A DNA stretch of 41,657 nucleotides from a virus: positions 1 through 41,657 of IMG/VR virus record IMGVR_UViG_3300002231_001575; one strand, 5' to 3'. Positions within the stretch are counted from its first letter, which is position 1. Each line of letters begins with the position of its first letter. The notes under the pieces were generated by a model that did not search any database, was not told the origin of the DNA, and saw nothing but the letters and a program-made list of their open reading frames with translations. Positions 36,571 through 41,614 of the stretch are shown here, piece after piece. The position numbers were made by a program, and so were the translations under genes.

Positions 36571-37908
36571 CTAAAGTACAGGTTCGTCGAATGGCGTTGC
36601 AAATGTGTCTGTTGCCAATTCCATATCCATAGTATATGATGATTCTTTTCCAACTCCACCAATAGTTAGTGTGTGTGCTAAAGAAACTATCATATAGTTT
36701 CCCGATAAATATTTATGTGATTCCGAACCATCATCTGATACAGGAGTCATTGATGGTAGCTGCAAATTGACTACTTGACCCAACTTTCTTCTTGGATCTC
36801 CATATGCTTGAGCACTAATTCTAATTCCTTGATTTGGACCATACTGCACTGCATATGAATTATGCCCAAGAGTAAATTGATCAGAAACAGCACTCGACGT
36901 TCTGTTGTCCCACGTACCAAAATGCTTTGACGCAAGCGTATAATATACATCATGGTTATTGCCAATTTGGGTTTTATTAGTCTGATAAGCAGGAAAATTA
37001 GAACGAACATTCTCTCCATTCAAATGCACTGTCTCATCATATAGATCAAAATAATTATAATAATCAATTCCTGTTGATCTCAAAACCGAATCGTATGTTA
37101 GCCTTTTTCCAGAATATGCTCCCATCTTAGAATCATCAATTATAGACAATTCTCTAATTACCCTATATGCAAGCAAATTAGAAAACTTCTCTTCCACATT
37201 TCGTTCAGTTGGAGATTGAACGTCAAAACCAAAGGTATACTGTTTGATCGGCTCAAAAACTGAAAGCTCATCCAACGACGCCAATATAAACTGATCTGGG
37301 TTCTCAAAAAAATAATAATTTGAAGAAGACCTATATCTGCTAGATTGCGCCTTCGCAGCTAGCCATTCAATAGCATTATATGGACTAAGATTCGGAATAG
37401 TAAATGAATGAGAACCAACTGATGGATCAAGCACACCGATAGGTTTAGGCCTAATAGATACAAATAAATATTCATCAAATATAGACCTAATAATATCTGT
37501 AATTTTTAGATTTTTATATGTCTTTCTAATTTTAGTTTGTGTGCTTAAAAAATATTCCAACGAAACAAAAGACAAAACATAAACTTGGCCTCTATCACCA
37601 ATACCTCTTGATCTATCTTTCACCTCAGCAATTGCGCCAAAAAAAGTTATTCGTTCCTCGATAGTAGGAACACTAAACTCTATTTCAATATACTCATTAC
37701 CATGAATACCAAACTGCTGGTCTAAACCAAGACCATCAGTAATTGTTATTTGCCCACTTATTCCTTGCTGGTATATACTAGTATACAATTCAATGTTATT
37801 GACCATCTGGCGAACGTCAACTACATCACCACCAGAAGTCAAGATGTTTAATTTATCTAAAGAATAATCCCCAGGCTGAATTATTTCATTTGTTCGATTG
37901 GTAGCCAT
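36571..37908 (-). CDS. gp27: Baseplate hub protein (gp27-like)
   Basis: gp27 forms the trimeric hub that links tail tube to the gp5 spike. The 445-residue protein (T4: 391) has the hub-type N-terminal beta domain: VVDVRQMVNNIELYTSIYQQ, GQITITDGLGLDQQFGIHGN and EYIEIEFSVP, followed by FSLEYFLSTQ-like sequence and IRKTYKNLKITDIIRSIFDE. The middle SPYNAIEWLAAKAQSSRY with YYFFENPDQFILASLDEL matches the second hub domain, and the end (KYLSGNYMIVSLAHTLTIGG) fits as the last tube-like domain. Similarity is at the fold level; the position directly before the gp5 halves supports it. It starts 1 base after the gp53 stop. Confidence 0.8.
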   Translation of the reverse strand: MATNRTNEIIQPGDYSLDKLNILTSGGDVVDVRQMVNNIELYTSIYQQGISGQITITDGLGLDQQFGIHGNEYIEIEFSVPTIEERITFFGAIAEVKDRSRGIGDRGQVYVLSFVSLEYFLSTQTKIRKTYKNLKITDIIRSIFDEYLFVSIRPKPIGVLDPSVGSHSFTIPNLSPYNAIEWLAAKAQSSRYRSSSNYYFFENPDQFILASLDELSVFEPIKQYTFGFDVQSPTERNVEEKFSNLLAYRVIRELSIIDDSKMGAYSGKRLTYDSVLRSTGIDYYNYFDLYDETVHLNGENVRSNFPAYQTNKTQIGNNHDVYYTLASKHFGTWDNRTSSAVSDQFTLGHNSYAVQYGPNQGIRISAQAYGDPRRKLGQVVNLQLPSMTPVSDDGSESHKYLSGNYMIVSLAHTLTIGGVGKESSYTMDMELATDTFATPFDEPVL

Positions 37909-37909
37909 A

Positions 37910-38821
37910 TCAAATTTGCATTAGCCCCTTAAACTCCTGAATAAAAGGATCCAACAATTCTGGACGCAATATTAATATCGACCGCCTCTCATCATTCAAA
38001 TCGTTTTCGTAATCAAAACGATTAATCGCCTTAACTGAAATTGCAGGATTATCATAATCTCGAATATCAGTAGTTGATTTTGAATAGATAATATCTCCAG
38101 CAGGTCCCGTTCTAGTTCTTTCAAAATGATGAACATTGAAAAGAGCAGTCACAGATTCTCCAACACCTGGCTCTGTATTCGCATTAAACGTATTAAAAGT
38201 AGAACAATCTAAATCAGTGGTAAATTCAGTATCACTATCCACAGAAACCACAGTCTGAGATGCGCCATATGGAATCTTTTGTATTCCAGGAACAAACTTA
38301 GGATCATTCACACCCGTAACATCTGTATACCAAGAATATGGTACAGATAATGAAACCTCATCTCCCACGAATACTTTGTTTTCAATACTTTCTACAGATG
38401 TGAATTTTGTTTGGAATTCTCCACCGACAATAACACTTCTAACATTTCCTCTAACATCAGCAACACCGTCATAAATTTTAATAGATGTCACTTGAACCTT
38501 TCTCTCACCTTCTCCATATTTCGATTCAAGATAACCTAAAAACTGATCAGTAGTTAGCGCAGTTTGATATACAGGATCCTGAATACTATTAACCAGTAAT
38601 AGCACCCAATGAAATTTGGAGCTTCCATAAAATTTATATGATATATCCTCAAGTCTTTCAGAATCTTTCATGCTGTATCCATAAAATAACGTCTTATCTG
38701 AAAGCTGATTGGCAACTACACGAACCCTCTTCATCACATCCACAACAACCTTACTATCACCAAGACCATCTTGATCATATTCAATAGTAGGAAACATTTG
38801 AAAATACGATTGGCGTGCCAT
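37910..38821 (-). CDS. gp53: Baseplate wedge protein (gp53-like)
   Basis: gp53 binds gp25 and gp6 and locks wedges around the hub. The N-terminal half carries the diagnostic MARQSYFQMFPTIEYDQ, ANQLSDKTLFYGYSMKDSER and LEDISYKFYGSSKFHWVLLL, the LysM-like segment of gp53, followed by QDPVYQTALTTDQFLGYLES. T4 gp53 is 196 residues; here it is 303, with a beta-rich extension in the middle (VFVGDEVSLSVPYSWYTDVT) and an end NDERRSILILRPELLDPFIQ that resembles the family's C-terminus. Start and stop lie within 2 bases of both neighbours. Confidence 0.93.
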   Translation of the reverse strand: MARQSYFQMFPTIEYDQDGLGDSKVVVDVMKRVRVVANQLSDKTLFYGYSMKDSERLEDISYKFYGSSKFHWVLLLVNSIQDPVYQTALTTDQFLGYLESKYGEGERKVQVTSIKIYDGVADVRGNVRSVIVGGEFQTKFTSVESIENKVFVGDEVSLSVPYSWYTDVTGVNDPKFVPGIQKIPYGASQTVVSVDSDTEFTTDLDCSTFNTFNANTEPGVGESVTALFNVHHFERTRTGPAGDIIYSKSTTDIRDYDNPAISVKAINRFDYENDLNDERRSILILRPELLDPFIQEFKGLMQI

Positions 38822-38823
38822 AA

Positions 38824-39957
38824 TTAAAACCCTTGAGAAATATGTTCTTTTGTAACGATTGCAATTTCCATAAAGCGCAACGTCATTTGTGTCTGAACTG
38901 GATGCCCATCATAAAAAGTGGAATTTACTTCAAAAGGATTTCTAGTAATCTGAATATCCGTCAAAGCACAAGGATGGAATTTGTGTACTTTATCCTCATT
39001 AAAATATGCAATATTAAATACGTCAGGATAAGAAAAGACTACACCATTTCCTCCGTTATCATAAGCAGGTGCCGAAAAATATTTAAACATCTTGATAATC
39101 TGCTGTACTTCATTTGCTTCTTTTCTGGACCTAGGAGCAAAGGTAAAAGAAAAATTAAATTCACGAAAATTAACACTACTAAACAATGCTTCAAGATGTG
39201 GATTTAACGCTTGGCTAGTCAAACGCTTCAATGCTGCTCCACCCAAATCCTGAGCACCAATCAAAGTACCTAATGCATCACCTGCGGCTTTTGTAGCAAA
39301 AGCTGCACCATCGCGACTATTTTGCATCTGATTCATCATTCTAGTAATAGCAGCTTTAGGTCCTTGAGAAATACCTTGAGTCGCTGTCTGAAGACCCTGC
39401 CCGGCGACTGGACCCAGTGCTGCACCGGTCCACTGTGGGCTATATGATTCTGACATACTCGGTGGGCTATACAAAGTAATAGATCCATGACTGGTACTTT
39501 TACTACTTCCATTAACAGAATCAATAATACCAGATATAAAACCAGCAGCTTCAATCAGCCCAGGAACTTTTTTAGCAATCTTACCCGACAAATTAATTGC
39601 CGCACCTTCAATTGCTTTTTCCGCAAAACCCCCAACCAGTCCTCCAACAACTTCACCAAACCTTTCAGCACTCGATAAATCACTCTTAGAACGTCGCAAT
39701 TTACTACTAGCAATCGAACTTCTTTTAGGTATTGCATCAGCCTGCAATGTCGCACCACGAATAGTTAAAGGCTCAAATCGAACAAAATGCATCTCTTCTG
39801 GACCTTCAACATCAAGAGGATACCGTAATGATACAAACTTCTCAACCTGAGTTGGAGCATTTACTACTTGATTCTGAAGATCCTCAAACGTATCCGAAAA
39901 TGTCTCATAAGCTATTTCGGTTTCTGTTTTATCTGGCGTCGGATTATCTGATGACAT
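38824..39957 (-). CDS. gp48: Baseplate tail-tube cap (gp48-like)
   Basis: gp48 sits on the hub with gp54 and starts tail-tube growth. The 377-residue protein (T4: 364) has a variable N-terminal half with a small-residue-rich helix region (VVGGLVGGFAEKAIEGAAIN, VPGLIEAAGFISGIIDSVNG) and a C-terminal tube-like domain: VNFREFNFSFTFAPRSRKEA, VQQIIKMFKYFSAPAYDN, VVFSYPDVFNIAYF and LTDIQITRNPFEVNSTFYDG with QTQMTLRFMEIAIV. That C-terminal pattern is the gp48/gp54/gp19 tube fold. A CATAAATA box 27 bases upstream is a candidate late promoter. Confidence 0.88.
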   Translation of the reverse strand: MSSDNPTPDKTETEIAYETFSDTFEDLQNQVVNAPTQVEKFVSLRYPLDVEGPEEMHFVRFEPLTIRGATLQADAIPKRSSIASSKLRRSKSDLSSAERFGEVVGGLVGGFAEKAIEGAAINLSGKIAKKVPGLIEAAGFISGIIDSVNGSSKSTSHGSITLYSPPSMSESYSPQWTGAALGPVAGQGLQTATQGISQGPKAAITRMMNQMQNSRDGAAFATKAAGDALGTLIGAQDLGGAALKRLTSQALNPHLEALFSSVNFREFNFSFTFAPRSRKEANEVQQIIKMFKYFSAPAYDNGGNGVVFSYPDVFNIAYFNEDKVHKFHPCALTDIQITRNPFEVNSTFYDGHPVQTQMTLRFMEIAIVTKEHISQGF

Positions 39958-39984: not shown

Positions 39985-39992
39985 TATTTATG
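39985..39992 (-). promoter_or_regulatory. Candidate late promoter box CATAAATA upstream of gp48
   Basis: One mismatch from the T4 late consensus, 27 bases upstream of the gp48 ATG and overlapping the TAA of the small upstream gene. The spacing agrees with the two exact boxes. Confidence 0.5.
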
Positions 39993-40158
39993 CTCTATTT
40001 TGTTGCTCAATTCTTTCGTTTTCCTCTTTCACATACTTTTCCAAAAGCATAACATACACATCACGTTCCCAAGGAATCATATTCTCAAGCTCAGTCAAAC
40101 TCCATTTATGATACTGCATAATATCAAAATTCAACTTATAATAATATCCAAGAGACAT
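39988..40158 (-). CDS. Small gp51-like baseplate hub assembly protein candidate
   Basis: A 56-residue frame starting ATG at 40156-40158: MSLGYYYKLNFDIMQYHKW, then SLTELENMIPWERDVYVMLL and a charged helical tail to EQQNRA. The core pattern (aromatic-rich start, 'Q-Y-H-x-x-S-L-T-E-L-E-N-M-x-P-W-E-R-x-x-Y') is a widely conserved small motif found just after gp26-like genes and in frameshift extensions of tail-assembly chaperones; it is often annotated as gp51-like hub assembly. T4 gp51 is much longer (249), so the name is tentative. An AGGG lies about 10 bases before the ATG. The frame is also reachable by a -1 shift from the gp26-like gene. Too short for usual ORF thresholds, but the motif makes it real. 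Confidence 0.7.
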   Translation of the reverse strand: MSLGYYYKLNFDIMQYHKWSLTELENMIPWERDVYVMLLEKYVKEENERIEQQNRA

Positions 40159-40169
40159 ATGACTGAGCC

Positions 40170-40889
40170 CTAGCCAAAAAAATTGTTCATTCCCTCCACT
40201 CTCACCAATTGCTCATGCTGATTTTGGCAACTATGTATTTTTTCATACTGAATCTTAGGCATCGAATCAAAAAAGAAACGAATCTTATCAAAGCAAACTT
40301 GAGGCAAACCATATAGAAAATCCTCTGCCTCTTCTCTCGAAATGTCTTTCATATAATAAATGCCTTTATCGTCATAAACACTTTCAATGCAATCTATGAT
40401 AACAGCAAAGTACATCTTCAATATTATCAGAATCCAATTCCTTCTCTCGACTTAAACTAGATTGAACTGTTGGATAACTCATTGTCACGCCAACAGTATC
40501 GGTTAAATCAAAACGCTTATTATGCCCATCTCTATCAAATACAAAATCTACATCATTAAGCAAATCGACCTCTACTGGTATCTTTGCGTCACACTCCTGA
40601 CACGGAACCATTAGATTCACTAGTTCTCCAATCGAACGGGCCCCGGACCTGTAGAAAATAATACTCCAAATCAAAAGTGGATAACTCTTCAATATTAAGA
40701 TCCGCATCTAAACAACAATTATTCAAAACCTGAATAACTGCACGCAACACCTCTTTTTGATCTCCACCCTCTTGTGCCAGTTAATAATATTTTTTCTTCT
40801 TTAACCAAAAACGGTCGATAAGTAATTTCTCTGCCTGTTGTAGGAAATTTCAAATAAAAAGTAGGTGCGGAAATTTTCGGTAAAGCCAT
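40170..40889 (-). pseudogene. gp26: gp26-like baseplate hub protein with three frame breaks
   Basis: Reading from the ATG at 40887-40889 (ribosome-binding site GGAG about 11 bases upstream) gives MALPKISAPTFYLKFPTTGR and TYRPFLVKEEKILLT. The frame then has to shift near 40777 to read AQEGGDQKEVLRAVIQVLNN, again near 40641-40644 to read ARSIGELVNLMVPCQECDAK, and again near 40407-40411 to read VIIDCIESVYDDKGIYYMKD, ending VEGMNNFFG. Each shift is solved by removing one base (GG, GGGG and TTT runs), and three such changes restore the original frame, giving about 238 residues. The series matches the T4_baseplate (gp26) family. CQEC and SCQNQH could form a zinc site. Open fragments seen separately are 40384-40707 and 40170-40421. 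Sequencing overcalls are more likely than true decay. Confidence 0.82.
40176..40182 (-). promoter_or_regulatory. Possible -1 frameshift slippery heptamer (T TTT TTT)
   Basis: Near the end of the gp26-like frame the codons AAT TTT TTT GGC TAG contain T_TTT_TTT in the exact register for a -1 slip. After the slip the reading continues TGG CTA GGG CTC and runs in frame through the gp51-like protein. A stimulatory structure downstream was not established. Confidence 0.4.
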
Positions 40890-40939: not shown

Positions 40940-41614
40940 TCAGCAAAAAGTTTGACCTTGCTTCCATCTTCTAATTGCCTGTGCTCCATTTTGTGTTATT
41001 ATTGCCATTCCAAATTCATCGAGTGCCCCTGCGATATCGACATTTGGATATAAATTATTAACAGTTAACCATTTACTAAATGGGCTAAAACCAATCTTTT
41101 GCTGATACACAGTTCTAAGTGAAAATACAACCGAAAGATTTTGTATAACACCAGAAGCCGACCAATCTAATGCGAGAGGATTTACATTTGTCGGAAATGC
41201 ATCAACTACACGAACCGAATATATTGTCTTTCCGGTTGCATCAAATTGTTCAATTTCCATATCAACAGAATAATCATCATAATAACTAACACGATTAGTA
41301 TACACATCTACCATAGCATTTTGCCAATCTTCAAATAATCCCCTAGGAAACATATCTTTATCTCGACAATAAAAACTCAACTGAAGATCATCATACACAT
41401 TCCTATGCGCCTGTCTCCTTCTGGGACCATATGTAAACACATCAGAAGCATCAATTAATCTTCCCGGAATAGTAGCTTGATTGCACAACATCGTCAGACC
41501 TTCGATACTGCGAGATCGAAACAAAGGTCCAGAAAACATAACCCTAAAATTACTTTGAAGGGCTAATCCTTTTCCTATCGAACTTCTAAAATTTTGAACA
41601 TTAAATTGGCTCAT
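40940..41614 (-). CDS. gp19/gp54-family tail tube (initiator) protein, C-terminus probably frameshifted
   Basis: A 224-residue open frame with the T4 tube fold: FRSSIGKGLALQSNFRVMFS, then LTMLCNQATIPGRLIDASDV, TYGPRRRQAHRNVYDDLQLS and FYCRDKDMFPRGLFEDWQNA, then YYDDYSVDMEIEQFDATGKT and VVDAFPTNVNPLALDWSASG. These are typical of gp19/gp54 tube subunits in marine T4-like phages. Because it lies just upstream of gp26/gp48 it is more likely the gp54-type initiator than the main tube gp19. The open frame ends QAIRRWKQGQTFC, but another frame reads EDGSKVKLFAENLSDVLKT to a TAA at 40912. Removing one base near 40978 would join them (about 233 residues) and close the odd 50-base gap before gp26. AAGGAAGAG upstream of the ATG is the ribosome-binding site. 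Confidence 0.75.
   Translation of the reverse strand: MSQFNVQNFRSSIGKGLALQSNFRVMFSGPLFRSRSIEGLTMLCNQATIPGRLIDASDVFTYGPRRRQAHRNVYDDLQLSFYCRDKDMFPRGLFEDWQNAMVDVYTNRVSYYDDYSVDMEIEQFDATGKTIYSVRVVDAFPTNVNPLALDWSASGVIQNLSVVFSLRTVYQQKIGFSPFSKWLTVNNLYPNVDIAGALDEFGMAIITQNGAQAIRRWKQGQTFC

Follow-up and report, generated by a model that had tools for sequence, protein, structure and literature searches.

The minus strand near the end of this viral DNA carries a gp26-like gene and, in the -1 frame behind it, a short gp51-like open frame. The question is whether the two are separate genes or are joined by a ribosome that slips at the end of the first. The window, which is the whole stretch of DNA analysed, is 41,657 nucleotides long and comprises positions 1 to 41,657 of IMG/VR virus record IMGVR_UViG_3300002231_001575. 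The coordinates of the features are collected in the table.

The last codons of the gp26 frame are AAT TTT TTT GGC TAG. The initial annotation had placed a T_TTT_TTT heptamer in the correct register shortly before the gp26 stop, and had a -1 slip entering the gp51-like frame without an intervening stop. Both statements are borne out. A single codon lies between the heptamer and the stop, and no stop interrupts the -1 frame between the heptamer and position 39988, a stretch that encodes FFWLGLSHMSLGYYYKLNFDIMQYHKWSLTELENMIPWERDVYVMLLEKYVKEENERIEQQNRA. A one-base backward slip on the heptamer reads FFWLGLSHMSLGYYYKLNFDIMQYHKWSLTELENMIPWERDVY and continues, open, to the same position. The downstream frame has a profile match to phrog_634, "baseplate hub assembly catalyst" (E 7e-24), and also matches positions 245-282 of the gp26/gp51 family phrog_150.

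Features of the gp26-gp51 region of the window (positions are those of the window; all features lie on the minus strand)
Feature	Coordinates	Strand	Remarks
Tail tube-like protein, just upstream	40940..41614	-	Weak Phage_TTP_2 / gp19 match, E 0.002, below curated cut-off
gp26 (TAC-N) coding region	40170..40889	-	PF12322; three frame changes (about 40.77-40.81, 40.64-40.69 and 40.42 kb)
Shine-Dalgarno-like GGAGGG, proposed upstream stimulator	40192..40197	-	9 nt before heptamer
Slippery heptamer T_TTT_TTT	40176..40182	-	In gp26 frame; T_TTT_TTN in register in 260/260 loci
gp26 zero-frame stop TAG	40170..40172	-	One codon past heptamer; equal spacing in 63/81 representatives
-1 frame extension, gp51-like	39988..40175	-	phrog_634; C-terminal part of proposed gp26-gp51 fusion
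Downstream helix 5' arm GGGCTCAGTCA, proposed stimulator	40160..40170	-	11 bp; compensatory changes
Downstream helix 3' arm TGACTGAGCTT	40087..40097	-	
gp48-like tail tube cap, just downstream	38824..39957	-	Weak T4_tail_cap match, E 0.019

The gp26 gene is identified by PF12322 (T4_baseplate, gp26), which matches two fragments in the window at 56.4 and 37.7 bits against a curated cut-off of 24.5; the E-value of the last fragment is 4e-15. In relatives, gp26 is a single intact ORF of about 230-250 codons. The gp26 of one of these (L020) aligns along its whole length to the window, as four pieces over three frames. The indels that were earlier said to weaken the case are therefore real. They lie upstream, at 40.4-40.8 kb, and leave the slip site and the gp51 frame untouched. 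They are separate from the slip site and are probably sequencing or assembly errors near the contig end. Since gp26 is broken by these other frame changes, the fusion could not be made from the contig in its assembled form. The slip-site argument is unaffected, because it rests on the relatives.

In the relatives, the same upstream neighbour is annotated as tail tube, and a tail tube-like gene is the kind of gene that precedes tail assembly chaperone (TAC) genes in other phages. A tape measure gene is annotated shortly downstream in phage Cr30. The gene that comes next in the window is gp48-like; behind it (36571-38821) are genes for a wedge protein resembling gp53 and for a hub-like protein of 445 aa with a weak Phage_GPD match, and no tape measure gene was identified in the window. 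The tail tube-like gene has an apparent frame change near its end. Many apparent frame changes occur at 40.4-41.0 kb of the window and at 42.7-45.8 kb of the record (L264), where an SSB-like gene lies in two frames (45113-45370 and 44598-45011). Broken genes continue up to the end of the record, and genes below 40.1 kb look whole.

The gp51-like sequence is matched in 525 phage records, mostly cyanophages, by tblastn. A search with the extension of Vibrio phage D479 returns one locus only. The comparison comprises 260 loci, which are the window, IMG/VR contigs and 17 reference phages spanning the Kyanoviridae and phages of Vibrio, Sinorhizobium, Rhizobium, Caulobacter and Pseudomonas. The first 11 references are Bellamy, P-SSM2, P-SSM7, S-RIM2, ME01, ACG-2014b, ACG-2014c, ACG-2014d, S-BM3, S-SRM01 and S-SSM6a. 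The others are Vibrio D479 and PVA23, Sinorhizobium phiM7, Rhizobium RHph_I1_9, Caulobacter Cr30 and Pseudomonas pf16.

Related phages keep the slippery site at the same codon throughout, as the initial annotation had proposed to check. In the first 80 IMG/VR loci, gp26 is an intact ORF with gp51 in its -1 frame and T_TTT_TTN in register (80/80), and the same register and frame are found in 17/17 reference phages. Among all 260 loci the heptamer is T_TTT_TTC in 208, T_TTT_TTT in 45, T_TTT_TTA in 6 and T_TTT_TTG in one. An eighth T, which would give a direct fusion, is present in 0/260 loci, and no locus of the 260 lacks the slip site while having its gp51 start well separated. Within gp26, the background frequency of in-register T heptamers is 0.0008 per codon. 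The conservation of the heptamer is far beyond chance.

Silent positions at the site are likewise fixed among 81 representatives that are less than 80% identical. The codon that holds the first T of the heptamer ends in T in 81/81, though it encodes D, S, N, A, T or G. The joint probability of this under codon usage is 2e-18. The first Phe codon is TTT in 81/81, against a background of 68.5% (5e-14). Both probabilities take the representatives as independent and are too small, because the 81 share ancestry.

Signals that may stimulate slippage are present on both sides of the heptamer. Upstream, GGAGGG or GAGGG is common at -15 to -10, and pairing with the anti-Shine-Dalgarno sequence has its peak there. 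When Glu is encoded at this Shine-Dalgarno-like site its codon is GAG in 39/55 cases, compared with 27% elsewhere (p 1e-11). Downstream, the 102 nt past the site fold more strongly than synonymous re-codings (mean z -1.75, SE 0.17; window -3.0). A helix that beats 95% of the re-codings is found in 47% of representatives, with its 5' arm starting about 3-13 nt past the heptamer; by the same test about half of the representatives have no strong downstream helix. Control stretches inside gp26 (n=4) have a strong helix in 5-7.5% of cases and a z of about -0.6.

Folding of the downstream RNA, also proposed in the initial annotation, yields helices with compensatory changes. In the window the helix is long-range, and 0/80 synonymous re-codings form one as good. 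Short-range folding in the window (+10 to +60 and +12 to +80) is not unusual. The signal there emerges only with the synonymous null and a longer range, and the long-range helix alone is unusual. Among the representatives, a common 5' arm pairs in three classes, which are our own grouping. Counted from the heptamer start, the partner lies at +32 to +42 (27 distinct sequences), +59 to +69 (21) or +85 to +95 (10, window included), with compensatory changes in each class; the percentage paired is biased, and double changes less so, because class members were chosen for pairing. One reading, plausible and evenly balanced, is that the fixed Shine-Dalgarno-like element nine bases upstream and the downstream helix form a two-sided stimulator. 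The partner would lie about 20, 45 or 75 nt away depending on lineage, and the stimulatory RNA structure would thus have been rebuilt repeatedly inside coding sequence in these T4-like marine phages.

The conventional alternative is a separate gp51 gene with its own start codon, coupled to gp26 termination, with the heptamer as merely a Phe-Phe motif. Databases annotate gp51 in this way. An ATG lies in the gp51 frame ahead of the conserved core in the window (at 40158) and in 32 others of the 81 representatives, but 48/81 have no ATG there and 27/81 have no ATG, GTG or TTG. The gp51 ORF overlaps gp26 in the -1 frame at all loci examined, and no -1 stop occurs within 150 nt in the 81 representatives. 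Moreover, residues are conserved in the -1 frame all the way from the slip site to the core, with L, M or F at codon 5 in 81/81 and His at codon 7 in 72/81, and this conservation extends past the gp26 stop. The annotations themselves are uneven. Those of ACG-2014b, ACG-2014c, ACG-2014d and S-BM3 omit gp51, and those of P-SSM7 and D479 cut it to about 30 residues, apparently because it has no usable start codon of its own. A Phe-Phe motif also leaves the frozen silent bases unexplained, and a separate gene is improbable. In the locus set, the references with gp51 missing or truncated are L092, L086, L095, L098, L099 and L100.

The frames could also be fused in the transcript, if polymerase slippage on the T run added a base to some mRNAs. 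The window does have a run of seven Ts, but most relatives (208/260) have six Ts followed by C, and six Ts are short for polymerase slippage. The codon register, the Shine-Dalgarno-like site and the downstream RNA helices speak for the ribosome instead, which makes slippage in the transcript very improbable. An artefact is more improbable still. Here the frame change at the heptamer would be another sequencing indel and the true gene a direct fusion, as the three other frame changes in gp26 and a contig end full of broken genes might suggest. However, the out-of-frame arrangement, with the gp26 stop close behind the heptamer, is present in all 259 other loci, references included. For the family, these loci refute a sequencing indel at the heptamer.

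The structure predicted for gp26 bears on function. The protein modelled is that of the relative L020, with 51 sequences (pLDDT 93, pTM 0.86). Foldseek ranks 2ob9, the HK97 tail assembly chaperone, first in the whole PDB (probability 0.84-0.87, E 0.55). Re-aligned over 84 residues, 2ob9 has a Z of 7.6, far higher than unrelated chains; it ranks behind an uncharacterised Bacillus protein, 3fgx (8.2), and ahead of a phage-satellite-element protein (5.1) and others (at most 4.3). No solved structure matched gp26 by sequence in a profile search. The N-terminal domain of gp26 is thus predicted, with moderate confidence, to have a tail-chaperone-like fold, the match itself being moderate (E 0.55; Z under 8).

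The proteins of T4 and RB49 provide a precedent for the fusion. T4 gp26 and T4 gp51 both match PF12322, and T4 gp51 consists of a PF12322 domain (1-201) and a phrog_634 region (147-246). RB49 gp51, judged by eye, has the same layout. T4 and RB49 gp51 are natural fusions of gp26 and the extension, and the two genes of T4 therefore appear equivalent to one gene plus a slip here. In T4, according to passages of PMC3004832, gp51 is required for assembly and is absent from the particle, and gp26 and gp51 are both listed as hub assembly chaperones. The suggestion that hub assembly uses a G/GT-type strategy is supported as to the strategy; for gp26 and gp51 themselves, tail assembly chaperone is a better description than hub part.

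The correct explanation is very probably a lambda G/GT-type -1 programmed ribosomal frameshift with two products, TAC-N (gp26) and TAC-NC (gp26-gp51). The lambda-like shift of the initial annotation is supported by the heptamer conservation, the frozen silent sites and the missing gp51 starts, and also by the stimulator signals on both sides, the chaperone-like gp26 fold and the T4 and RB49 fusions. The slippage itself, its rate and the chaperone function are inferred. Most ribosomes would terminate at TAG once gp26 is read, and their product would be TAC-N, the short form of the tail assembly chaperone. Some, aided by the downstream helix and by base pairing between GGAGGG and 16S rRNA, would slip one base on T_TTT_TTT and bypass the stop. 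These would append the gp51-like extension of 60-odd residues and yield TAC-NC. If lambda G/GT is a guide, both forms would coat the tape measure protein, recruit tail tube subunits and then leave.

In many phages, tail assembly is set up by a long and a short chaperone. In the T4 literature gp26 and gp51 are puzzling hub proteins, and here they look like two forms of one chaperone. The two forms would be made by frameshift in the T4-like phages checked outside the T4 group and by two genes in T4 and RB49. Because gp51 is split, shortened or omitted in reference annotations, the fusion is missing from proteome searches of abundant marine phages.

Xu, Hendrix and Duda reportedly showed in 2004 that lambda G/GT and other tail assembly chaperones are made by -1 frameshifting. 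Like lambda G/GT, gp26-gp51 has a short ORF with a -1 extension, a heptamer close to where the first ORF ends, an adjoining tail tube-like gene and a tail-chaperone-like predicted fold in the N-terminal domain of gp26. Unlike lambda, whose heptamer is G_GGA_AAG, the gp26 phages have T_TTT_TTN and a conserved Shine-Dalgarno-like element, and gp26, at about 240 aa, is longer and has additional C-terminal parts. The E. coli dnaX cassette has an A_AAA_AAG heptamer, a Shine-Dalgarno-like sequence about 10 nt upstream and a structure downstream. It resembles gp26-gp51 in its upstream element and downstream structure, and the gene is unrelated. Vladimirov and co-workers are said to have treated, in 2022, apparently the same two proteins in T4-like phages.

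T4 and RB49 have two genes, 26 and a full-length gp51, whereas the relatives examined here have one gene and a probable frameshift. Passages of PMC10885494 describe some T4-like phages in which a short gene and a separate, longer fusion gene take the place of frameshifting, and passages of PMC12846349 describe poly-T slippery sites in the TAC-N genes of T4-like phages. Given these statements and Vladimirov et al. 2022, known through both papers, the frameshift idea is not new for T4-like phages. The literature search found no paper combining gp26, gp51 and "ribosomal frameshift", and the passages of the two papers make no mention of the Shine-Dalgarno-like site or the downstream helices. These two elements and the gp51 mis-annotation may be new details. 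A TAC frameshift at a GTTTTT motif is also described in passages of PMC12846349 for the Vandenendeviridae and Andersonviridae, as in phage Adele. These are different phage families, likened to gp26-gp51 by arrangement: both have a TAC-N that ends in a T-rich -1 site, a -1 frame that is open in all genomes and a downstream ORF annotated as a separate gene.
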